This document shows, piece by piece, positions 50,434 to 63,865 of a stretch of DNA of 64,000 bases; positions within the stretch are counted from its first letter, which is position 1, and every line of letters begins with the position of its first letter. The notes below the pieces were generated by a model. That model was given only the letters and a program-made list of their open reading frames with translations. It was not told the origin of the DNA and did not search any database. The position numbers and the translations under genes were made by a program. Source of the stretch: Clostridia bacterium (GTDB lineage Bacteria; Bacillota; Clostridia; Christensenellales; Borkfalkiaceae); the NCBI GenBank assembly GCA_017886545.1, contig JAGHJS010000088.1, positions 31,404 to 95,403 of the forward strand, written 5' to 3'.

Positions 50434-52680
50434 TCAGAATTCCACTTCGATGATGTGTTCGCCGCCGTCCGCAAAGGGCGGCACGAGCTGCCCCGCCGCC
50501 CAAGCGCCGTCTATGCGCATCCGCACGCCGCCCAGCCGCAGGTTTTTATAAAAGATCCGCAGGCGGCTGCCGCGGTAATCGCGTTCGGCGTACGCCTCCT
50601 CCCATGCGGAAGGCAGGCAGGGCGAAATGCGCAGCCCCGCGTACTCGCGGCGGATGCCGAGCATCCCTTCATAATAACAGCGCAGCCCCCACGCGGAGGT
50701 CCCCGTCTGCCAGGACGGCCCGCACTTCATATCCGCCGCAGGGTGCTTGAGGTAACAGTTCACGAACACGTACGGCTCGACCGTCGTCTTTTCGCTCGGG
50801 TTCCGCGGTCCGTCCGGCACGATCGCGCCGAGAGACGCATACGCCTCCTCCGCCCTGCCGAGCGCGCAGTCCGCCATCACTTTGAAGCAGCCTGCGTGGT
50901 TATAGATGCCGCCGTTTTCGTAAACGCCCGGGAGCATGCCGCTCATCCTGCCCACGCGCGCGTCATACCGCGGATAGGGCGGCGAACAGAGCCGCACGCC
51001 CTCGGGCGTGACGGCGCCGTCCACCGACCGCAGCAGCGGCTGCACCCGATCGGGCGGCACAACGCCCGCCAGGACGGCAAAGGACTGCGGATTGATATAA
51101 AACGTACCGTATCCGCTCGTTTTATCCCCCACCGTTCCGCACGCAGAAAAGGCGCGCACATAATAATCGCCGTTCCAGGCGCAGGCATTGAGCCGATCCG
51201 CCATCCGGCACCGCTGCGCATGCGCGAAGTCCGAAAAAGCCTCGTCGCCCGCGCGGGCGAACAATTCGGCGAATTCGCGCATCAACAGGCAGACGCACTC
51301 CGCCATAAAGACGGATTCCGCATTCTCGTCCGGAATGTTGAGCGCATCGTTCCAGTCCGCATAATACAGCTTCGGCAGCCCGTGCGGCCCCGCGTTCGCA
51401 GGATCCGCGTACCAGCGCGCCGCCGCTTTGAGATGCTCCGCAACGCTTGCGCCGCCGCCGTCCAGCCAGGGAAATTCCTCGTCAAGGAAAGAAAATTCAC
51501 CCGTCTCTTTGATATACTCGCAAACCGCCCAACCCAGCCAGAACGCGGGGTCGGAATACAGCTTCGTGTCCGTGACGGGATACCAGAGCAGCACGCAGTG
51601 CCCGTCCCGATACTGGCGGGCGAGGCACTCGGCAAGCACCTCCTTTGCGCGCACCGTATCGAAATTCAGGAACCCCATTGCGAGCTGCGCGTTGTCGCGC
51701 ACCGCTTTTTTCCCGATGGCACAGTAACTGACCTGTTTTTCCGCCCAATAATTGAACACCGTGTTGAACCGCGCGTCGGGGCATTGTGTGCGCAAGCGCC
51801 CGAACCGCTCCGCCCGTTCCGGCGCGAACGGCTCTTCCGCCTCCGCCAGCATGGCGGCACGCGCTCCGACGAGCGCGTGCGCGCTTTCGCAGAACCCGAT
51901 GAAGTAGTACAGCGTGCGGCTCTCGCCTGCGGCAAGCGTGAGTTTGTTCTGCAACAGCCCGCAGCGCGCGCGCACCGTCGCGCACGAACAGGAGAGATCG
52001 TTCCCCTCTTCCAGGGCAAGCGGCCGCGTAAGCCCGCCGTTCACGCCCGTAAAATTATCAAGGTATCCTTCAAAGGCGTCCGCCGCCTCGGAGGACATCA
52101 CAAACCCGTGCGGGCAGTCGAATTTTGCATACGGGTTCTGCGAAAGGCAGACGACCGCACTGCAATCGGCAAGATATTTTGTTTCGCTCGTCGTGCCCGC
52201 GTTGTAATAGAACGGCATCGCGTACCCGTCCATGCGGAACACCGTACCGGCGATCACGCTAACGCGGCGCACCCGCCCGCTCTTGTTGCGGAGGGTGACC
52301 CGCCGTACTTCGTACGGGCGCGCATCCGGCACGGCGAATGCGACTTCCGTTTCCAGCCCGTCGCGTTCGGAACGGACGGTGCTGAACGTTTGCCCGTGGA
52401 TACAGCGGAACTCCCCGACGGGCACGGCGCTCGGCCAGCCGCCCGCGTTCCAGTAGGCGCGCGTTTCCTCGTCGCGGAAATAGACGACGCCGCTCTTCGG
52501 CTCGTTCAGCACGATCGCTTCTGCCGTGGCGGAAACAAATTTTGAAGAGGACGCGCCCGTGTGCGTGACTTCACACTGGAACCCGCCGTCGTTCCATAAA
52601 AAATTGCACCAGTCCTTGCCCGTTTCCTGCCTGCGGACCGTTACCGTGCCCGCCGCGGCGTCTGAACTGTAAAAACTCAT
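50434..52680 (-). CDS. GH94-like glycoside phosphorylase (glycosyltransferase 36)
   Basis: 748 aa, start ATG 52680 (GAGAGGAG). N-terminal beta-supersandwich (residues ~1-270) and (alpha/alpha)6 barrel (~300-700). The family catalytic loop is YADWNDALN, with the Asp as general acid; other GH94 blocks are GIYNHAGCF, SAWGLRCYYEGMLGI and GVRLCSPPYP. GH94 enzymes cleave beta-glucosides (cellobiose, laminaribiose, chitobiose and similar) with inorganic phosphate to give a sugar 1-phosphate. The linked phosphohexomutase type of activity could feed this into glycolysis. Exact linkage unknown. 16 bp before the GH78 gene. Confidence 0.88.
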   Translation of the reverse strand: MSFYSSDAAAGTVTVRRQETGKDWCNFLWNDGGFQCEVTHTGASSSKFVSATAEAIVLNEPKSGVVYFRDEETRAYWNAGGWPSAVPVGEFRCIHGQTFSTVRSERDGLETEVAFAVPDARPYEVRRVTLRNKSGRVRRVSVIAGTVFRMDGYAMPFYYNAGTTSETKYLADCSAVVCLSQNPYAKFDCPHGFVMSSEAADAFEGYLDNFTGVNGGLTRPLALEEGNDLSCSCATVRARCGLLQNKLTLAAGESRTLYYFIGFCESAHALVGARAAMLAEAEEPFAPERAERFGRLRTQCPDARFNTVFNYWAEKQVSYCAIGKKAVRDNAQLAMGFLNFDTVRAKEVLAECLARQYRDGHCVLLWYPVTDTKLYSDPAFWLGWAVCEYIKETGEFSFLDEEFPWLDGGGASVAEHLKAAARWYADPANAGPHGLPKLYYADWNDALNIPDENAESVFMAECVCLLMREFAELFARAGDEAFSDFAHAQRCRMADRLNACAWNGDYYVRAFSACGTVGDKTSGYGTFYINPQSFAVLAGVVPPDRVQPLLRSVDGAVTPEGVRLCSPPYPRYDARVGRMSGMLPGVYENGGIYNHAGCFKVMADCALGRAEEAYASLGAIVPDGPRNPSEKTTVEPYVFVNCYLKHPAADMKCGPSWQTGTSAWGLRCYYEGMLGIRREYAGLRISPCLPSAWEEAYAERDYRGSRLRIFYKNLRLGGVRMRIDGAWAAGQLVPPFADGGEHIIEVEF

Positions 52681-52693
52681 TTCGGCTCCTCTC

Positions 52694-52729
52694 AAAAACG
52701 GAGGCTCCCGCACGCGGCGAAAGCCTCCG
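52694..52729 (-). terminator. Terminator/attenuator after the LacI gene
   Basis: CGGAGGCT/AGCCTCCG stem followed on the minus strand by TTTTTGAG, between the LacI stop and the GH94 ribosome binding site. Confidence 0.65.
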
Positions 52730-52740
52730 CTACGATCCGC

Positions 52741-53739
52741 TCAGACAGAACTTCTGGCTCTGTATTCGGCGTACAGGATGTATTTGCGTTCCTGCTGCGT
52801 ATTGCCCTTCAGCTGTTCCAGGATATTGTTCATGCACAGCCTGCCGAATTCTGCCTTGTCGTACCCCATCGACGAGATCGCGGGAGAAATGTAACGGCTG
52901 ATCAGCATGTCGTCACAGCCGCAGAGAGAAATATCCTGCGGGATGCGCAGCCCGCGCTCGCTCAGGCATTTGTATGCGCCGAGCGCAATGTTGTCGTTCA
53001 CGCAATAGATGGCGTCCGTGTCGGGGAAGCGCTGCAAAATATCCGCCGCGGCATTGTACCCGAATTCGGACGCGCTCAGCGTCACGATATTGTCCTGAAA
53101 GCAGCAGAGGCGGCGCTCGTCGAAAGCGCCGCCCGCCCGCCCGAGGAAATAGCGCATGGCGATCAGGCGGGTATCCGGCTCGATCTCCGCGCGGGAGGTA
53201 TCCGCAAGGAACGCAACGTGCGTCCGCCCCTTTTTCAGCAGCTCGCCGACAAGCGCTTCCACCGCGTTGACGTAGTTGATGCTCACTTCAAAATTTTCGA
53301 TGCCGGGCGCAACGTTTACGACGGCTATATCGTGCGAAATAAGTTTCGTGTACTCCTTTTCCGTACAGAAAAAGCGCGACAGATTGATGATGCCCTCGCT
53401 GCGGTGCGCGTAGCAGTTGTTGTAGTAATTTACGCGGTTGTCGTTGGCTATGATCACGTTCAGGGAGTACCCGGAGGGGAAAGCGATCTCGTACATACCG
53501 CGGTACAGCTCGTCAAAGTTATCCAGCGTGCTCAGCAGGATGGTGACCTGCTTCGTCGAATTCATTTTGAAACTGCGCGCTAAAAGGTTCGGCTCGTACT
53601 CCAGTTCCGCAATGACGCGCAGCACGCGCTGTTTGACCTCGTCGCTGACAAATTTTGTGCCGTTGATCACGTTTGAGACGGTGGACGGAGCCACCCCCGC
53701 ACGCTTGGCAACATCGTTCCTGTTGACCGCTTTGCCCAT
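52741..53739 (-). CDS. LacI-family transcriptional regulator
   Basis: 332 aa. N-terminal LacI HTH and hinge (NRNDVAKRAGVAPSTVSNVINGTKFVSDEVKQRV, YEPNLLARSFK), then a periplasmic-binding-protein-like ligand domain (residues ~65-332; DAIYCVNDNIALGAYKCL and DISLCGCDDMLISRYISPA are family blocks). Embedded in the glycoside locus on the same strand and 17 bp after the GH99-like gene, so it is probably the local sugar-responsive repressor. Confidence 0.94.
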   Translation of the reverse strand: MGKAVNRNDVAKRAGVAPSTVSNVINGTKFVSDEVKQRVLRVIAELEYEPNLLARSFKMNSTKQVTILLSTLDNFDELYRGMYEIAFPSGYSLNVIIANDNRVNYYNNCYAHRSEGIINLSRFFCTEKEYTKLISHDIAVVNVAPGIENFEVSINYVNAVEALVGELLKKGRTHVAFLADTSRAEIEPDTRLIAMRYFLGRAGGAFDERRLCCFQDNIVTLSASEFGYNAAADILQRFPDTDAIYCVNDNIALGAYKCLSERGLRIPQDISLCGCDDMLISRYISPAISSMGYDKAEFGRLCMNNILEQLKGNTQQERKYILYAEYRARSSV

Positions 53740-53756: not shown

Positions 53757-55682
53757 TTACTCGGTTACTTTATAAACGTAGCGCATCCTCCCGATGGGAG
53801 CCGCGTCGCCGTTCACGTAAAACTCGGCGACGTCAAGATCCTTTTGCAGGTTGTCCGCGACTTTGAGCCCCAGCGACCGCCCGACGGGCAGCCCGATCGC
53901 CGAGCGCGGCACCTTGATCCGCATGATGTTCCCCTCGACGCTGCTTTCACACGTCCCGACAAAGGTAAACCCGCCGCCGTCGATGCGGTGCAGCGACGTT
54001 TTCCCCTCTTCGGGCGTGCGGTTGAGCACGTACCGCATCCCCATCCAGCCGTCGGACGCGCCTTCCGCCCCGAGATAAACGTTCATCCAGCGCTCGTCGC
54101 CCTCTTCAGGCGCGGTCACGTCCTCCGCGGTACGGATGAGCAGGTACACGTTCTCTCTGTCCGCCGCGACGCGCACTTCCGTGATGTCGTTGCGCCCCGT
54201 ATCGTTTTCGAGCACGTTCTGCCCCGAGGTATCCAATGCGCTGCGCGCGATCGTCTCCCCCGTAAAATCGCGGAAAACGGCTACGTTCTCCCCGTTCCAG
54301 CCGCCGAGCCCGTCCATCAGGGAATCGAGCGGCTCTTCGCTTTCGGCAAACGTTCTGCCGCTCCCCTCGCCCTTGTACTCGCGCACGTTGCGGATGAGGG
54401 AAAGGTAGTAATTGTCAAGATACTCCGCATTCATCTCGATATCGCGCGAAAACTCCATGTTGAAGGTATCCACAAAATGGCAGTAATCGTCGCCGAGGAC
54501 GGAACTGTTCGGCTGCTTCTGCGCGATCCATTCGTTCCAGCCCGTCACGAAAACGAGGTCCACGTCGTTTCCGCCGTCGCCGTCCGCTTCGTTTTTGAAC
54601 ACGGTATCCCACTGCTGTTCGAAATTCGTGCCTTCGGCAAGCGCGCGTTCGCGGCTGTTTTTGCCTTCGGTATGGTCGTATCCTCTTCCCCAATTTGCAT
54701 TATACACCAAATCCATGTAATTTGCATCAAAATCAAAGCCGTTTTTTTGCAATTCCGCACGGTTTTCGGGCGCGAACAGCCCGGAATCGCTGAAATCGGC
54801 AAGCGGCTTGCTCGTCGCCGAGATGCCGACGTGCTGCGAAACGGAAACGGACATGATGTTGCCGACCTGCGGATCGGTGTAGATGTCCTGCGGATAGTTC
54901 CAGTCCATCCAGGGGAAGCGCGCGCTTTCGATGGCGGCGTTCGGCCACTGCGGCAGTTTGAAGTAGAAGGTCGAATCGATCAGCGGATCGCCCGTCGTGC
55001 TGCCGATGATCCACGGCTTGTTCTGCGTACCGCGGAACCAAAGGGGTTCATACTCGGGGTAAAATTCCGGATCGTAAAACGTGTTGTAGATCTGTTCCAC
55101 CGACGTCCGCGACGTAGCGGGGTCGACGGAGGTAAGGAACATCACTTTCGGCACGTCGAACCCCTGTTCGTAATACTCGAGCAGAAGGTCGAGAAAGGCG
55201 TATGCCTGCACGTCGTAGATGCGCCCGTTCGACGTATCGAAGGCGATAAAATCCAGCCCCGCGTGGATGAACAGCTCGATGTGCTTGCGGATGACCCATT
55301 CGTCGTCCGCATTGTAATAGCCGTACAGCGGCTGCCCCCAATAATGGAAGGCGTTCATCTCCTGCGTGCCGCCCGCCGATTGGCGTGCCAGAAGCTCGCT
55401 CATCACCGTCCCGTTCTTTTCGTAGTTGTTGCTCACGTCCTTGATCGGGCTCTGGTCGGAACCGTTCCACAGAAAATAGAAGATGCCTACATACTTATCC
55501 TGTTCGTACCCCGAAACGGGCGAAAAGGAGCGCCCCACGTCGTCGGCGGCCGCCGTCATCGTAAAGCCGTCCGCAAGCCCGTCGGGGCGGTCTTCGAGCT
55601 CCCCGCCCGCACAGCCTGCAAGCGCGCCGAGGCTCATGGAAGCGGCAAGCGCCAGCGCCGCGATCTTTTTGCTCTTTTTCAT
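53757..55682 (-). CDS. Surface lipoprotein: GH99/WbsX-like glycoside hydrolase with C-terminal CBM9-like domain
   Basis: 641 aa, ATG 55682 (AAAGGAGGGG). Lipobox LAGC near residue 23. Residues ~60-445: TIM-barrel related to GH99/WbsX and GH71, with KYVGIFYFLWNG, HYWGQPLYGYY, LDFIAFDTSNG and the C-terminal VTGWNEWIAQ motif that usually provides the catalytic acids. Residues ~490-641: beta-sandwich like CBM9/DOMON (ITEVRVAADRENVYLLIRT, LKVADN). It should act outside the cell on glycans before import. A paralogue's C-terminus starts at the window's right end. Confidence 0.8.
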   Translation of the reverse strand: MKKSKKIAALALAASMSLGALAGCAGGELEDRPDGLADGFTMTAAADDVGRSFSPVSGYEQDKYVGIFYFLWNGSDQSPIKDVSNNYEKNGTVMSELLARQSAGGTQEMNAFHYWGQPLYGYYNADDEWVIRKHIELFIHAGLDFIAFDTSNGRIYDVQAYAFLDLLLEYYEQGFDVPKVMFLTSVDPATSRTSVEQIYNTFYDPEFYPEYEPLWFRGTQNKPWIIGSTTGDPLIDSTFYFKLPQWPNAAIESARFPWMDWNYPQDIYTDPQVGNIMSVSVSQHVGISATSKPLADFSDSGLFAPENRAELQKNGFDFDANYMDLVYNANWGRGYDHTEGKNSRERALAEGTNFEQQWDTVFKNEADGDGGNDVDLVFVTGWNEWIAQKQPNSSVLGDDYCHFVDTFNMEFSRDIEMNAEYLDNYYLSLIRNVREYKGEGSGRTFAESEEPLDSLMDGLGGWNGENVAVFRDFTGETIARSALDTSGQNVLENDTGRNDITEVRVAADRENVYLLIRTAEDVTAPEEGDERWMNVYLGAEGASDGWMGMRYVLNRTPEEGKTSLHRIDGGGFTFVGTCESSVEGNIMRIKVPRSAIGLPVGRSLGLKVADNLQKDLDVAEFYVNGDAAPIGRMRYVYKVTE

Positions 55683-55754: not shown

Positions 55755-57476
55755 TCACGACTTCATCGGGTCGGTCGCAAAGCTGACGTCGGAACCGATG
55801 TACCAATCAAGGCTCGTTTCTTTCAGTCCGCGCCACTCTGCATAGTTGGGGAAGGCGTCTTTCATCAGGCGCAGGATCTCCGCGCCGTACTCCTTCCATT
55901 CCGTGCCGCTTTCGGCACGCAGGTACTTCGAGATCTGCGCGTTGACCAGATCCTGCAGCATGCCGCCCGTCGCCAGGATGCCCGTATTTTCGGAATAATA
56001 CGTGGCAAAGAGCCTGTACGGGTTGGTGGAGCAGTCGCCCTCGAACTCCGTTTCGCCCTCGATGCTCACTTCTTCGGGCAGTTCGTAGTCTTTGAGGTAG
56101 CACTGCATCGCGCACACCTTGCCGAGGTTTTTATAGTGCCTGTAATACTCGTCGAAGCCCTGCGGCGAGAAGAGATATTTCAGGAAGTCGATGCAAAGCT
56201 CCGTCTTTTCCGCATTGCGGTTGACGAGCGCGAGCGGGTGATGGTCCGGCCCGCCGAGCGTGCGCAGATTGTCCGCCGCGGGCGCGCCGGCTCCGCCGTT
56301 GTTCGGCATGGCGGGAAGTTTGAACCAGCCGAGCATATCCGAAAGCTCGTCCGTCGGCACGACGCCGTTCGGCTTGCCCATCGCCTGCCCGAGCGACTTC
56401 TGATGGTCGGTGATGTAGTCCAGGCGCAGCAGATAGACCGCCACGCGGTTGTTCAGCTCGAATTTCTGCGTATTGCTCACGGTGAGCGCGTCGTTATTGA
56501 AGCGCTGGCGGATGACGACATTCGAATAAGTGGTGGAGGCATAGGATGCAAGCTCTTTGAGGTTTCCCATCAGCTCCGCAAAGCGGGCGGAAGCGGTGTT
56601 GAACGTGCTGCCCTCCTTGAAGTACTCGTTGACCACGCGCGTAAAGTTATACGTATACCCGCTCGGCGAATCGTTGGTCGGGTCGGTCGGGTCGTACTGC
56701 CACACGTCGTCTGCGTCGATCTCGGGGATATAAGAATAGTCCCCCTCCTGCGAATGCGCGGCGTCGATCATGTCGCGGAAGTACTGGTCCATGTACATTT
56801 GCAGCACCCAGTTGAAGTTGTTGCTCTCCAGCCCCGCATCGTCGAAGTTCAGCCCGAGCGGCGCCGTATAGCCGACTTCGTTTTTCAGCTTGTCAAGAAT
56901 ATCGATGAATTCGTCCCACGTCGTCGGCGGCGTGATGCCGTATTCCTCGAACGTATCCTTGTTGTAGAACGCGACGAAGGCGTTGCCCTCCATGGAAAGG
57001 TTGTAGATGTGCTGCGTTTTGACGTCCGCACGGTATGCGTCCTCGCGCAGCGTCGTCTTCCAGACCTTATTGCCGTTGTACGCGTTGGGCGTGTTCAGGT
57101 AGGGCGTGAAGTCGACCAGCGCGCCCGTGCCGTAGTACTGCGAAACGGTGTTCGCCTGGATGATGTCGCCGTCCTGCTTATCGGGGTTTTTCAAAAGCCC
57201 GTCGACGGCGGTATAGTAGCCCTGCGGGTCCTGCGAGGAACGGACGACGACGTTGACGTCCACGCCCTGCGCCTTTTTCATCTTTTTGTAGGCATTGCCG
57301 ACGTTTTTGAACGCCGTTTCGCTGTCCGAATCGATGGGCAGGAAAATGTTGATCGTGCCGCCCTTTTCGGTCCCGCCGCCCGTGTCATCCGTGCCGTTGT
57401 CCGTGCCGCAGGCAACGCCGAGCAGCAGAAAGGCGCATACGAAAACGAAAATAAGAACTTTTTTCAGGATTTTCAT
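55755..57476 (-). CDS. ABC transporter solute-binding lipoprotein (family 1, sugar)
   Basis: 573 aa, start ATG 57476 (CAAGGAG). Signal peptide with lipobox GVAC. Family-1 extracellular binding protein blocks: TINIFLPIDSDSE, GDIIQANTVSQYYGTGALVDFTPYL, VAFYNKDTFEEYGITPPTTWDEFIDIL. Larger than typical MalE (~400 aa), as usual for Clostridial oligosaccharide binders. Works with the two permeases immediately downstream in the coordinate sense (upstream in transcription). Confidence 0.93.
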   Translation of the reverse strand: MKILKKVLIFVFVCAFLLLGVACGTDNGTDDTGGGTEKGGTINIFLPIDSDSETAFKNVGNAYKKMKKAQGVDVNVVVRSSQDPQGYYTAVDGLLKNPDKQDGDIIQANTVSQYYGTGALVDFTPYLNTPNAYNGNKVWKTTLREDAYRADVKTQHIYNLSMEGNAFVAFYNKDTFEEYGITPPTTWDEFIDILDKLKNEVGYTAPLGLNFDDAGLESNNFNWVLQMYMDQYFRDMIDAAHSQEGDYSYIPEIDADDVWQYDPTDPTNDSPSGYTYNFTRVVNEYFKEGSTFNTASARFAELMGNLKELASYASTTYSNVVIRQRFNNDALTVSNTQKFELNNRVAVYLLRLDYITDHQKSLGQAMGKPNGVVPTDELSDMLGWFKLPAMPNNGGAGAPAADNLRTLGGPDHHPLALVNRNAEKTELCIDFLKYLFSPQGFDEYYRHYKNLGKVCAMQCYLKDYELPEEVSIEGETEFEGDCSTNPYRLFATYYSENTGILATGGMLQDLVNAQISKYLRAESGTEWKEYGAEILRLMKDAFPNYAEWRGLKETSLDWYIGSDVSFATDPMKS

Positions 57477-57504: not shown

Positions 57505-58407
57505 TCAGAGTTTGAGCCCGGACGCGAATTCGCCGTCGATAAAGAATTTCAGTCCGATGACCGTGGTTATGACGAGCGGGATGCCGCTGACCAGGTACAG
57601 CGCATAGGTCGCGCCCCTGCCCGCCATCGTGCCGTCGGAGAGGATCGCCTCGCTCGCTTTCACGGCGAGGTCTTTGAGCGCGGGCATCAGCGTGCCGTGC
57701 TCGGGGTTGTTCATGAAGATCATCAGCGGCCACAGGTAGTCGTTGTAGATCGCCGAAAAGATGGATACGCCCTGCACCATGATGATCCCGAACGTCATGG
57801 GAAGGCACAGCGAAAAGTAGGTGCGCACATCGCCCGAGCCGTCGATCTCCGCCGCCTCGTAGATGTCCGCCGGCTGCTGCGCCATAAAGGTGCGGAACAG
57901 GAAGATAGAGGCGATCTGGTTGCCCGCAATATACGGGAGGATGACCGCGAACCAGCTTCCCAGAAGGTTCATCTGCACGATGTTCAGATACTGCGGCGTC
58001 AGAGACACGACGCCCGGCACGAGCATGGGCAGGATGACGAGGTAGAACAGCAGGTTCCGCCCGGGAAAGCGCTTGCGCACGAAGATGTACGCCGAAAACG
58101 CGGAGAGCAGCGTCATGGCGACGACGGACACGAGCGCGATGAAAATGGTGATGCCCATGTTCGGCAGCGCCTCTATGATCGCCGAAGAGTAATTTTCCCA
58201 CTGGATCCTGCTCGGCAGCGACCAAAGGCTGCCCGTCGAGATGTCCTGCTCCGTTTTCAGCGAAAGAATGACCGTGATGATGACGGGAAGCAGGGTGAAA
58301 AACAGCATCAGCGCGAGGTAAAAGATGAGCACGGACTGCGCGACAACGCCGTTTATGCCGCGTTTGCGCATCTTGTGCCTGACGGCCGCAAACGAATTTT
58401 CACGCAT
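57505..58407 (-). CDS. ABC sugar transporter permease, MalG type
   Basis: 300 aa, six TM helices. The EAA loop EAAEIDGSGDVRTYFSLCLPM couples to the ATPase. The gene starts 1 bp after the stop of the fused permease. No ATPase gene is in the window; a shared MsmX/UgpC-like ATPase elsewhere is likely. Confidence 0.94.
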   Translation of the reverse strand: MRENSFAAVRHKMRKRGINGVVAQSVLIFYLALMLFFTLLPVIITVILSLKTEQDISTGSLWSLPSRIQWENYSSAIIEALPNMGITIFIALVSVVAMTLLSAFSAYIFVRKRFPGRNLLFYLVILPMLVPGVVSLTPQYLNIVQMNLLGSWFAVILPYIAGNQIASIFLFRTFMAQQPADIYEAAEIDGSGDVRTYFSLCLPMTFGIIMVQGVSIFSAIYNDYLWPLMIFMNNPEHGTLMPALKDLAVKASEAILSDGTMAGRGATYALYLVSGIPLVITTVIGLKFFIDGEFASGLKL

Positions 58408-58408
58408 G

Positions 58409-60460
58409 TCACAGCTCCTCCTTGCTCGTCTGTTTACGGAAGCTGAGGATGGTCGCCGCCAGCAGGAAGAGGAACAGGAACATGCTCATCGCGCTGGATA
58501 AGCCGTAATTCGGTTCGCTCCCGCCCTTGTAGATGCTCTCGTAAATGATGAGCGCCGGCACCTTCAGCCCGTGCCCCGTGGACTGGTCCGTGATGAACAG
58601 CCTGCCGTAGTCCTGCACGGACGCGATGAACGAAGTGATAAAGATATACTTGATCTGCGCGAAGATGAGCGGCAGGTCGATGGTCGCCATCCGCCTCCAC
58701 CAGCCGCAGCCGTCCAGCTCCGCCGCTTCGAACAGCGATTTCGGGATGCCCATGACGCCGCCGTAAAAGATGAGGTACGAGCCGACCCACGGGAAGGAAA
58801 ACATGATGATGGAGACGAGCGACCGCGTTTCGAGGTACGGCCCGATCCACGTCTGCATGAACCCCGGCACGAACAGCGAACAGATGCTGTTCAGCAGCCC
58901 GTAGCTGTCGCTGCCGAAGATACCGTTCACCCACACGAGCGTACCGGCAACGCCGGGCAGGATGCCCGGGATAAACAGGAGCACGCGCACGGCAAAGGAA
59001 AACCGCTTGCTGCGCACGGCGAGGATAAACTCCGCAAAGATGAGCGGCGGCACGATCGCCTTTACAAGGTCGGTCACCAGCAAAATAAACATGTTCAGCG
59101 TGGAATTCCAGAAGATGGAATTCTGCAGCACGTCGCCGAAATTCTGAAGCCCGACGAACTCGCTCGTCACGCCGTTGTAATTGAAAAAGGAGAGCGCGAA
59201 CCCGCGCGCGATGGGCCAGTAATAGAACACGGCGAGCAGCGCAAAGGTGGGGACCAGCCCGAGGTACGCGAATTTGTGTTTGACGAACGTTCTGCCGCAC
59301 AGCGCCAGCCCGCGGTTGACGCGCGCGCCGAGCGGGCGCCACGCATGCAGCCCCGCGAACACGAGAAAGAGCGCAAACACGGCGAGCAGCGGGATATACA
59401 CGGGCAGCAGCCCCGCATACGCCGCCATCTGCCGCGCGAGCGCAACGCCGATATAGCGCGCGCCGCCGTCCGAAAGCACAAAGGCGCTTTCCGACGCCAT
59501 GAGGAGCGTGCCGCCGTCCGCCGCCATGTTGAACAGCTGCCCCTCGTCCGCGCGCACGCCGACGACCCTGCCGCCGCCCGCGCCGTAAAAGGTGCCGCCC
59601 GCGCACAGCACGGTATCGAACGCCTGCCCCGTGCGCAGAATATACTCTGCGTTGAACGTATCGTCAAAGCGGTAAAAATTGCCCGCGAGGTCCATCCCCG
59701 CAAACCCCGTTTCCGTTTCGCAGAGGGCGGCGAGTTTCTGCGCGGGGATGTCGTACTGCTCGTATCCGTCCGTCATGCCGTTCGCCGTGAAAGCGCGCAC
59801 GGTGTAAATATCCGAAGCGACGTACACGCGTTCGTCCTCCGTCACGCAGATCCCCTGCACGCCCGTTTCCACGCCGCCCGAACTGACGGCGTATTCGCCG
59901 CCGTCCAGCTTCGGGTATTCGCGGTAACTTACGGGTGCGTCGGGCGTACCGCCGAAATCGGTGCGGAGCAGGTACACTTCCTTCCGCGCGCCGACCATGC
60001 CGTACACCGCAAACAGACTGCCCGAAACAGGGAAATACGCCTGCTGCGGCACATAGTTCGTTTCCAGCACGCCCGCAGGCGTACCGTCGCCTTCGGCAGC
60101 AAAGCGCAGGACCTGCCTGTCGCCGTACAGGGCGAACACCTGCCCGCCGTAGAGCGAAACGCTCAGAACGCCCGCACTGCTCCCGCTGCCGTCGGCGGCA
60201 GGTTTCCGATAGGAAAACAGCAGCGCGCCGTCCTCTTTATTATAACACGAAAGCAGCCCGTCCGCGTCGGCGGCGGCAAAATATGTATCGTCCTCCGCCA
60301 TGCGCACGGCGCCGCTCGCGGCGGGAACGGGGAACGCGTCGCTCCCTCCCGCCGCGGAAACGCCCGCGCCGACCAGCACCGCAAAGGCGATGACGCCCGC
60401 CAGCGCGACCGCCGTCAGCGCAGCCCACAGCGGCGATAGATTTTTGAATTTTTCCCGCAT
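58409..60460 (-). CDS. MalF-type ABC permease with a large N-terminal extracytoplasmic beta-propeller-like domain
   Basis: 683 aa. TM1 at ~13-35, then ~310 extracytoplasmic residues with PQQ/NHL-like beta repeats (SCYNKEDGALLFSYR, VLSVSLYGGQVFALYGDRQVLRF, GVQGICVTEDERVYVASDIYTVRAF, AALCETETGFAGMDLAGNFYRF). TM2 at ~350-372 follows, then a complete MalF-like permease (~395-683) with the EAA loop EAAELDGCGWWRRMATIDLPLI. Normal MalF proteins are ~290-500 aa. The domain may contact the binding protein or sense substrate or the wall. Start ATG 60460. Confidence 0.88.
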   Translation of the reverse strand: MREKFKNLSPLWAALTAVALAGVIAFAVLVGAGVSAAGGSDAFPVPAASGAVRMAEDDTYFAAADADGLLSCYNKEDGALLFSYRKPAADGSGSSAGVLSVSLYGGQVFALYGDRQVLRFAAEGDGTPAGVLETNYVPQQAYFPVSGSLFAVYGMVGARKEVYLLRTDFGGTPDAPVSYREYPKLDGGEYAVSSGGVETGVQGICVTEDERVYVASDIYTVRAFTANGMTDGYEQYDIPAQKLAALCETETGFAGMDLAGNFYRFDDTFNAEYILRTGQAFDTVLCAGGTFYGAGGGRVVGVRADEGQLFNMAADGGTLLMASESAFVLSDGGARYIGVALARQMAAYAGLLPVYIPLLAVFALFLVFAGLHAWRPLGARVNRGLALCGRTFVKHKFAYLGLVPTFALLAVFYYWPIARGFALSFFNYNGVTSEFVGLQNFGDVLQNSIFWNSTLNMFILLVTDLVKAIVPPLIFAEFILAVRSKRFSFAVRVLLFIPGILPGVAGTLVWVNGIFGSDSYGLLNSICSLFVPGFMQTWIGPYLETRSLVSIIMFSFPWVGSYLIFYGGVMGIPKSLFEAAELDGCGWWRRMATIDLPLIFAQIKYIFITSFIASVQDYGRLFITDQSTGHGLKVPALIIYESIYKGGSEPNYGLSSAMSMFLFLFLLAATILSFRKQTSKEEL

Positions 60461-60533: not shown

Positions 60534-63500
60534 TTATTCGTCCTGCCCGTCCTTACCGGAGGTCTTTCCCGCCTTCTTCTTCCTTACGATGACGACCGCC
60601 GCCACGACGCCGGCCACCACGACCGCCGCCACGACGCACACGATGATGATCCACGTGCTGTCTTCGGGTTCGGACGGATCGGAAGGCGCGCTGCCCCCAT
60701 CCTTGACGCGGATCGAGAAAGCGTTCTGCGCGTCGCCGACGTCCGCCGTCGCCGAAACGCCCATGCGCAGGTCGGTGAGAACGGTGTTGCCGATGCCGTT
60801 CAGGAAGGAATACTCCGTATCGTTCAGCGTCACGATGAGCGAATTGCCCTCATAGCGGAAGCCGATCGTGTTCTCCCCGATGACGCTGCCGTCATGGAAG
60901 GTTTTGTTGTCGGCGATCGCCGTGTTGTTCACGTACACGTTGTTTCCGTTCTTATCCCGTACGGTCAGCACAACGTACCCGAGGTATGCGCCTTCCTCCG
61001 CCGTTGCGGGGTCGACGTTCGCATGGATCTCGACGGTGAGCGTGTTCCCGCTGTACACGTCGCTGAGGTAGACGGCAACGTGCGCGTTGCTCGAACCCGT
61101 CAGCCCGTTCAGGTAATACCCGTTCAGCGCATCGATGGTGAGCGTATAGCTGACCTCGCCTTCCGTGAGGTCGATGAGCTGTTCGTAGAGATAATTCCCT
61201 TCGCCCTTCACGCTGAACAGCCCGTCGTCATACGTGCCCGTACCGGTGCCGCCCTTCTGCGCCCAGCCGTTTTCGTACTTTTCGGCGATCGCCATGGCGA
61301 AGTACAGATCGTCGCCCGCCACGACCGCAAACGAATAGGTCTTGTTTTCGGTGAAATATTCCTTGGCAACGGTCAGTTTGCCGCCTTCGAAGGTGAACTG
61401 CGAAGAGGTAAGCTCTTCCATCGTATCCATATCCACGACGGACGTGACCGTTTTGCCGTCGAACGCGTTTTCAAACACTGCGCCGTTTTCGCCGACGGTC
61501 GCCACGGCGGACTTATCCGCGCTGACTTCGCACAGCGCCTTGATGTTCGCCTTCAATTCCACGCCGTCCGCAACGACGGTGAACCGCATCACGTCCGCAT
61601 AGGCGATGGTCTGCAGGTAGCTGCCCTTGATGGTGAGTTTGCCGTCCGCAAAGGTATAGTCCGTATTTGCGGTGAGCGGTTCGTCGCCGTACTTCACCGC
61701 GGAGACCGCCGTCGTGTTGTACATGTTGAAGGAAACATCCGTATCCGCGCCGAGCGTGTATTCCAGCCCGTAGGTGTTCGCCGCGGGAGACGCGGGGTTC
61801 GTGCGGGTGGTGATGTCGAGCGTGCCCGTGCCCGAGAAGATGCCGAGGTACGCCTTGCCGCCCGCAAAGCTGTCAAGCGTCCATACGTCCGTATCCCAGA
61901 TCTGTTTCCCGTTGAAGGTGACGACCGTCCCTTCCTTGGTGATGGTGAAGGAGAACAGCTGCGGCCCGTTCTGGTTGATGTATTCGGGTTTCGCCTGCGT
62001 GGGCAGGTCGCTTACGAAGCTCGGGCACTGGAACTCCCCTTTCGTATGGTCGTACAGGAAGGCGAGACTGGTATTCGTCGCATTTTGGTCGAACGTTGCA
62101 AGCTTCGTGATATCATTGGTCAAACCGATAACGAACCAGCCGTGCCCGCTGCCCAGTTCGAGTTTGTTGATATCCAGTTCGAGGTACAGCGTTTCGGAAA
62201 GATCGATGGGTTCGGAGTAATAGACGCGGCTGAGCATGCCCATGTGCATCGTGGTAGAACCGTTGTCGCCCTTTGTAACGCTTTCGGGCGCACCGTCGCC
62301 CGTGACGCCGTCCGTCTTTTCGTCCATCGTGTCCGCATTGACCCATTCGTTCTGCGCCGTTTTGCGGAACACTTTGTATTCGACGGAACCTGCCATCGTC
62401 TGAAGTTCAAACGTATGCAGCCCCTGTTCCAACCCGTTTATAAGCTCTTTTTTCAGCGTGAGCGTGATCGTGTTCGCAGCCCATGCCGCCGTATAGTCTT
62501 TCGTTGCGGTCAGCGCTTCGCCGTCGAGCAAAACGGTATACGCCTCTTCGCGCTCGTAGGTGACGCCGATCGCAAGGTCAGCGGTAAGCTCCTCCGCGAC
62601 CATCTGCGGCGCGGTCTGAGCCTCTGCGAGCGCGGGAGGCTCGGCATACTGAATGGTCAGCCCGAACGTCGTCGTCCTTTCATCCTCAGAGGTCAGCACA
62701 AACTGCGTATCCAGCGGATAGAAGCCGAATTCCTTGTCTCTGATCGCCGTCGCCTTCAACGTGACCGTGTTGCCGCTCACCGTATAATCGGTGTCTTTTG
62801 TAAGCTCTACGACCTGCCCTTTCGCATTGGTGACGGAAATTTTTGTCACAGGCTTCGTAAGGTTCAGCGTGATGTCCGTATTCCATTCCAACGCCTTGAC
62901 CGCCGTGCCGCTCGCCACGGAGGACTTGTAAATCGTGAACGGGTTAAAAGCACTCACCGCAACCCACGGATCGGTCCCCTGACCGCTGAAATGAAGAACC
63001 GCATTCACTTTCCCGGAAGGGAAATTCGCCTGCGTTGCCTCTTCAACATCAGCCACAAGCGTATCATTGATATAGATTTTCGTACTTTCTGTCCCGATAT
63101 CAATGCTCACATAATGCATGATATACGTTTGAGACAATTTTTTCGTATTATCTGTGCTGATTGGAACGGTCGCGACACCGCCTTCCAAATCCGTTATCTG
63201 CTTACCGTTAACAAATAATTGCACGGAATTTCCCATCGCGTCAAACAAAATACCAAACGGCGTGTTTGATTCCTTGGATTGATAGTAGTTACTCAAATTT
63301 TCGCTGTCGTAAAGGTTAAACATTCTCCAACCATGACCGCTGTTCGGCTGGATACCGATCTCAAAGCTGATCGTTTCCTGAACATTCAACTCTTTGTTGT
63401 TAAAGATCTTTGCTTCTGCAAAGGTAGCCATTTCGGTATAACCTTGACTCGCAGGGTTCTCCGGCGGAAGATATCCAAGGTACCCGTCTCCCGGATTACC

Positions 63501-63704
63501 TACTAATGTACCTTCAATTAATACATTGGTTTTATCCTGCATCGCATTGTAAGCATCCTGTTTGAACCATCCATTGCTATCAAAAGCTGTTTCAGGCTGC
63601 TCAGCCTGACTTTCTGCAAACGCCACGATGCCGAACCCTGCCAAAGAGAGCAGCATCACCAGCCCGAGCAGCAGACAGACAAGTGTTTTGCTTTTTGTTC
63701 TCAT
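60534..63704 (-). CDS. Large surface protein with lectin-like domains and C-terminal membrane anchor
   Basis: 1056 aa, start ATG 63704 (CAGGAGGAATG; the ORF-track start at 63845 is too long). Signal peptide (LLGLVMLLSLAGFGIVAFAES). Three jelly-roll/LamG-like modules: residues ~40-260 (NSGHGWRMFNLYDSEN, VQLFVNGKQITDLEGG), ~465-640 (LELGSGHGWFVIGLTND, TVVTFNGKQIWD) and ~810-1000 (ALNGYYLNGLTGSSNAHVAVYL). They are separated by Ig-like linkers (AEPPALAEAQTAPQ, LDGEALTATKDYTA). One TM helix (IIIVCVVAAVVVAGVVAAVV) and a KKK tail at the end. No LPXTG. Probably binds the polysaccharide degraded by this locus. Confidence 0.82.
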   Translation of the reverse strand: MRTKSKTLVCLLLGLVMLLSLAGFGIVAFAESQAEQPETAFDSNGWFKQDAYNAMQDKTNVLIEGTLVGNPGDGYLGYLPPENPASQGYTEMATFAEAKIFNNKELNVQETISFEIGIQPNSGHGWRMFNLYDSENLSNYYQSKESNTPFGILFDAMGNSVQLFVNGKQITDLEGGVATVPISTDNTKKLSQTYIMHYVSIDIGTESTKIYINDTLVADVEEATQANFPSGKVNAVLHFSGQGTDPWVAVSAFNPFTIYKSSVASGTAVKALEWNTDITLNLTKPVTKISVTNAKGQVVELTKDTDYTVSGNTVTLKATAIRDKEFGFYPLDTQFVLTSEDERTTTFGLTIQYAEPPALAEAQTAPQMVAEELTADLAIGVTYEREEAYTVLLDGEALTATKDYTAAWAANTITLTLKKELINGLEQGLHTFELQTMAGSVEYKVFRKTAQNEWVNADTMDEKTDGVTGDGAPESVTKGDNGSTTMHMGMLSRVYYSEPIDLSETLYLELDINKLELGSGHGWFVIGLTNDITKLATFDQNATNTSLAFLYDHTKGEFQCPSFVSDLPTQAKPEYINQNGPQLFSFTITKEGTVVTFNGKQIWDTDVWTLDSFAGGKAYLGIFSGTGTLDITTRTNPASPAANTYGLEYTLGADTDVSFNMYNTTAVSAVKYGDEPLTANTDYTFADGKLTIKGSYLQTIAYADVMRFTVVADGVELKANIKALCEVSADKSAVATVGENGAVFENAFDGKTVTSVVDMDTMEELTSSQFTFEGGKLTVAKEYFTENKTYSFAVVAGDDLYFAMAIAEKYENGWAQKGGTGTGTYDDGLFSVKGEGNYLYEQLIDLTEGEVSYTLTIDALNGYYLNGLTGSSNAHVAVYLSDVYSGNTLTVEIHANVDPATAEEGAYLGYVVLTVRDKNGNNVYVNNTAIADNKTFHDGSVIGENTIGFRYEGNSLIVTLNDTEYSFLNGIGNTVLTDLRMGVSATADVGDAQNAFSIRVKDGGSAPSDPSEPEDSTWIIIVCVVAAVVVAGVVAAVVIVRKKKAGKTSGKDGQDE

Positions 63705-63825
63705 ACATTCCTCCTGATATTTTTGTTTTTTTCTCCCGTACGGGAGGGTTTGCCGCATAGAAACATCTTCACGGCAGTTTAGCAATTTGCCGTTACGTGT
63801 GTTTTCCGTTGCGGAAGCAACGGAA

Positions 63826-63841
63826 AAACAGGTACCTGTTT
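63826..63841. promoter_or_regulatory. Palindrome upstream of the surface protein
   Basis: Perfect 16-bp palindrome AAACAGGTACCTGTTT, next to the hairpin TTCCGTTG/CAACGGAA (63804-63825). Possible operator or part of the terminator of the preceding GH99-like gene. Confidence 0.35.
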
Positions 63842-63865
63842 GCATGAAACCTTATCCCGCCTTGC

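Follow-up and report, generated by a model that had tools for sequence, protein, structure and literature searches.

The window, that is, the whole stretch of 64,000 nucleotides analysed here, carries a sugar importer of a gut bacterium, encoded together with its neighbours as follows:

50434..52713, minus strand: GH94 glycoside phosphorylase (PF17167, E 1e-64)
52741..53739, minus strand: LacI-family regulator (Pfam and NCBIfam)
53757..55682, minus strand: lipoprotein of an unnamed family, with a TIM-barrel-like part and a C-terminal beta-sandwich, faintly GH71/GH99-like
55755..57476, minus strand: sugar-binding lipoprotein (SBP) of 573 aa, large for its class (PF13416/PF01547)
57505..58407, minus strand: partner permease of the MalG/UgpE type, 300 aa (PF00528, E 6e-9)
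58409..60460, minus strand: fused permease gene, 683 aa plus stop, with orthologues elsewhere
60534..63845, minus strand: upstream gene for a surface protein of 1103 aa that bears CBM_X2 domains (PF03442) and a TM helix at its C-terminus

Frame translation from 60460 to 58409 on the minus strand gave 683 aa with no internal stop. The earlier note had placed the gene at exactly these coordinates; its strand had to be corrected to minus, since the plus-strand frame of the same interval meets a stop at residue 31. As that note had proposed, one frame encodes a membrane helix, the repeat domain that it precedes, and the permease. Hydropathy analysis detected eight TM segments (cores 13-31, 351-369, 400-418, 457-475, 493-511, 547-565, 597-615 and 654-672), of which the first is N-terminal, the second lies at 351-369 and six fall into the C-terminal half. 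The order in the protein is TM helix A, beta-propeller, TM helix B and a six-TM MalF/UgpA-type permease with an intact EAA motif:

60350..60433, minus strand: extra TM helix A (residues 10-37; hydropathy and a helix in the AlphaFold model)
59447..60310, minus strand: predicted extracellular seven-bladed beta-propeller (residues 51-338; Pfam, AlphaFold, Foldseek and family profile)
59861..59935, minus strand: conserved loop linking blades 3 and 4 (residues 176-200), the domain's most conserved stretch within the genus
59342..59446, minus strand: extra TM helix B (residues 339-373; hydropathy and AlphaFold model)
58421..59287, minus strand: six-TM MalF/UgpA-type permease domain (residues 392-680; EAA motif EAAELDGCG...LPL at about 578-598)

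An isolated misassembly or frame artefact is ruled out because other genomes of the order encode full-length orthologues with 35-89% identity.

The C-terminal half best matched the NCBIfam UgpA model (residues 392-680, E 3e-17) and also the NCBIfam MalF model (436-676), while BPD_transp_1 (PF00528) matched at 479-669 with E 2e-4, below the Pfam cut-off for this protein and above it for several relatives. Its solved sequence relatives are MalF, AlgM1 and SugA chains and 7cad/8ja7. The EAA motif EAAELDGCGWWRRMATIDLPLI spans residues 578-599, with E578, A579, A580, D583, G584, P597 and L598 invariant in the family. By its six-TM core and this motif, the protein classifies as a type I ABC importer permease of the MalF/UgpA type (BPD_transp_1). 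A partner permease and a binding protein lie nearby and an ATPase is present in the genome, although its use by this importer is presumed. The core 392-680 resembles six-TM permeases of the UgpA/LplB/SugA type, which are paired with a UgpE/MalG-type partner; in contrast, the solved chains of this type and the closest unfused relatives comprise about 290-345 aa and lack both the extra helices and the propeller.

E. coli MalF belongs to the same superfamily (PF00528), and there, too, one of the two permeases carries a folded extracytoplasmic domain. In MalF, the conserved core is preceded by two additional TM helices that are separated by a very short loop (P1, few residues), and the P2 domain sits between TM3 and TM4. 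In the window protein, however, the propeller occupies the position of P1 rather than that of P2, and the fold is that of a propeller. Only about 38 residues separate the helices at 400-418 and 457-475, where P2 would be located according to hydropathy. A P2-type loop is ruled out by this short spacing and by the position of the domain at 51-338. Since the propeller separates the extra helices and only about 38 residues remain where P2 would lie, the protein is a MalF-type permease that bears its outer domain elsewhere and with a different fold; the suggestion that the layout departs from standard MalF was thus borne out.

Assignment of the fold drew on several comparisons. Pfam PQQ_2 matched the N-terminal part alone (residues 49-123, E 4e-5), below the Pfam cut-off. 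The AlphaFold model was built from a shallow alignment of 9 rows (the window and related loci), on account of which the permease half was modelled poorly (pLDDT below 50). Over most of residues 51-338 the model is confident, with pLDDT mostly at 70-91 (averages of ten-residue blocks mostly 62-91, except for 181-200), and fell below 50 in the loop 186-199. The modelled strands form six groups of about four and a last group of three (318-338), perhaps closed by an N-terminal strand near 41, and helices 10-37 and 339-373 flank the propeller. Foldseek matched the model to BamB chains (E 1e-12) and to designed propellers, with moderate TM-scores, mostly 0.4-0.56 by target, so that our own count of seven blades and the exact geometry are provisional. 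A family profile of 14 N-terminal domains of fused permeases, compared against solved structures, matched the designed propeller Cake9 (2e-45), YxaL (3e-24) and BamB (2e-16). Matches of up to E 2e-45 to solved PQQ-type propellers imply a resemblance beyond chance. When the family members were scanned singly, 10 of 14 matched PF13360 (PQQ_2) at E up to 0.1, the best at 3e-8. Scans of Pfam and NCBIfam yielded no match of a PQQ dehydrogenase model to the window protein.

Circularly arranged four-stranded blades and a PQQ-like motif are both found, and sequence and model together identify the N-terminal domain as a BamB/PQQ_2-type beta-propeller. It has the fold and blade motif of BamB and YxaL in common with the PQQ_2 propellers (PF13360). 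BamB has eight blades and exists as a free lipoprotein of the outer membrane, whereas the window propeller, counted at seven blades, is built into a permease. The earlier note had described an extracytoplasmic PQQ/NHL-like domain of 310 residues; the PQQ/BamB-type propeller is supported by Pfam, model and profile, and the size is nearer 290. Disorder, which that note had named besides a P2 loop as a possible nature of the region, is ruled out by the mostly confident fold over 51-338. The N-terminus and the segment following TM helix B (HAWRPLGARVNRG...KHK) are rich in Arg and Lys, and these flanking charges, read by the positive-inside rule with a helix on either side, place the propeller probably outside the cell.

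The fusion recurs as one clade in sugar loci of the order. Fifteen fused permeases grouped in the tree with support 100/99, every member with a long N-terminal domain, while the nearest relatives outside this clade lack it. Using the permease half as query within the order, all matches at E < 1e-84 lay in frames of 660-741 aa, and the next ones (E 5e-59 and weaker) in frames of 292-345 aa, except L066/L081 with 639 aa. As all permeases of the clade carry the long N-terminal frame and their closest relatives do not, the domain has been kept through a long divergence, and the fusion is thus old and maintained. It occurs in four of the order's families, in some genomes in two copies, and a search of 151 relatives recovered the domain in 10 genomes. 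Sampling of 396 genomes of the order and 399 of the phylum gave, among the matches listed, full-length ones only within the order. The profile of the N-terminal domain, applied to the 399 phylum genomes, returned among the matches listed three weak short ones besides the window's own, and 1133 plasmid records contain permease matches, among which no listed one extends over 80% of the query. In the closest orthologue (L010, the same gene in L026) a comparison with the query shows a lack of about 16 residues around blade 6, aligned to about 281-297 of the query, which could reflect a real deletion or an assembly error.

A divergent permease, L081 (G173:C1, 4640-6556, minus strand), carries an N-terminal PQQ_2 propeller above the Pfam cut-off and is possibly an independent fusion. 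Among the matches listed for its domain in 250 genomes, the proteins found are not permeases. L066, the 16th fused permease in the tree, joins the clade of 15 at 70/87 only; with this support, L066/L081 may or may not share its origin with the main clade. DUF5711 (PF18975) is a stand-alone relative in layout, consisting of one N-terminal TM helix followed by a propeller-like domain of about 340 aa, but with no permease. It is present in other genomes of the order; a search of the genome to which the window belongs gave no hit, and Pfam did not match it to the window protein. L081 matched DUF5711 at E 5.5e-6 to 1.9e-5 (24.5 bits against a Pfam cut-off of 26.3), and profile comparison linked the window family to it weakly, with a probability of 79%. 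DUF5711 as the source of the propeller domain is therefore suggestive only.

In related loci the partner permease and a binding protein are common, and a LacI regulator, a 658-aa lipoprotein family, a CBM_X2 protein and GH94 are often present; the window holds all of these. The partner permease adjoins the fused permease in most related loci, the CBM_X2 surface protein lies beside it in several to many, and the family of the 53757..55682 lipoprotein is a genomic neighbour in much of the clade. The nearest solved chains of the SBP are sugar- and oligosaccharide-binding proteins. Inspection of the neighbours without profiles revealed no ATPase gene beside the fused permeases, and one UgpC-type ATPase above the curated cut-off is encoded elsewhere in the genome.

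Taken as a whole, the protein is one half, the MalF-like one, of a carbohydrate ABC importer, and a membrane-anchored, seven-bladed PQQ/BamB-type propeller extends its N-terminus. Two extra TM helices would hold the propeller outside the cell, the permease domain would pair with the neighbouring permease to form a standard transport core, the large lipoprotein binding protein would deliver an oligosaccharide, and transport would presumably be powered by a shared ATPase of the MsmX/UgpC type encoded elsewhere in the genome. Situated beside the translocation path, the propeller most likely docks or concentrates the binding protein and/or the surface glycan-binding and glycan-cleaving lipoproteins of the locus. 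We favour, with moderate confidence, an extracellular protein-protein platform that docks or captures the binding protein and/or surface glycan machinery; docking of the binding protein was one of the two roles that the earlier note had suggested.

Docking is favoured because propellers are common protein-interaction scaffolds and because BamB, the best fold match, itself belongs to a membrane protein complex as an accessory subunit. It also agrees with the uneven constraint expected of one interaction face: within the genus, conservation is 0.81-0.91 over residues 137-236, which comprise blades 3-4 and loop 176-200, compared to 0.58-0.73 for the other blades, and the loop alone reaches a mean of 0.91 against 0.58-0.83 for blades. 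This loop is genus-specific and absent in distant members, so that the interaction face may not be general. Furthermore, binding proteins beside fused permeases are longer (550-614 aa, 13 complete cases) than those beside 12 unfused relatives (460-559 aa; 11 of these at most 523), and we treat this difference as a lead because the rank test (p 1e-4) takes no account of relatedness and the treatment of signal peptides was uneven. The length gap may only mark a binding-protein clade travelling with the permease clade. Finally, MalF P2, which contacts the binding protein (PMC3150292), provides a precedent for a permease domain of this function; the propeller, however, stands in front of the canonical TM1 and not at the P2 position. 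Identity in one genus was 51-53% for the propeller and 89-90% for the permease, and such faster evolution would likewise be expected if the propeller were a surface domain under loose constraint. As a candidate partner of the propeller we consider the CBM_X2 surface protein. This protein (60534-63845) diverges about as fast as the propeller.

Fast divergence would fit a propeller that follows changing substrates, as expected if it were a built-in lectin that captures poly- or oligosaccharides at the membrane and raises the local substrate concentration for the binding protein. Many propellers bind sugars, and the locus is rich in glycan-handling genes (the CBM_X2 protein, GH94, a GH78-like gene and the GH71/GH99-like lipoprotein). 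Yet the 14 aligned domains share almost no invariant position and no family-wide invariant aromatic or acidic cluster, and the structures matched best are those of protein-binding or designed propellers, for which reasons we judge the lectin function unlikely. Less probable again is a mostly structural or assembly element that aids folding, keeps the two permeases stably paired or serves as a tether to the cell wall: a BamB-like scaffold whose sequence changes fast while the fold is kept would suit it, but close unfused relatives manage without the propeller. Least probable is a sensor or gate coupling uptake to a second ligand, as the earlier note had suggested, or to the cell-surface state, since, even though regulatory domains on ABC importers are known and direct attachment through two helices could carry a signal to TM1, neither a ligand pocket nor a conserved residue set was identified, and the open literature searched offered no precedent.

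Each part of the platform architecture is known separately, and the combination was not found in our partial coverage of the open literature, in which no report of a propeller-permease fusion was encountered. In gammaproteobacteria, a propeller-like domain also occurs in some large phosphate permeases of the PstC type; a text search with one family number of this kind gave no match. GlnPQ importers have extracytoplasmic domains covalently attached to the permease (PMC8025302). The domain fused there is the binding protein itself, whereas here a separate binding protein is retained and the fold is another.

Bacteria without an outer membrane must stop cut sugars from drifting away, and a platform outside the cell on the permease would, if the docking reading is true, directly link binding, cutting and import. 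An extension of that reading, which we put forward as a doubtful idea, is a so far undescribed class of carbohydrate importers in which the permease-built propeller would keep the binding protein and surface glycan-degrading lipoproteins assembled in a single cell-surface machine that hands freshly cut oligosaccharides directly to the channel. As the fused clade stands beside close unfused relatives, the role of the propeller is testable by simple deletion.

The lipoprotein encoded at 53757..55682 had no Pfam match, and its low-confidence model weakly matched GH71 and GH99 enzymes (best E 3e-5). Relatives occur in 12 of the related loci, and a single locus often encodes two or three of them; they comprise about 620-670 aa, and FVTGWNEW and many aromatic residues are invariant among them. 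These proteins may constitute a new family of glycoside hydrolases that carry a beta-sandwich at the C-terminus.
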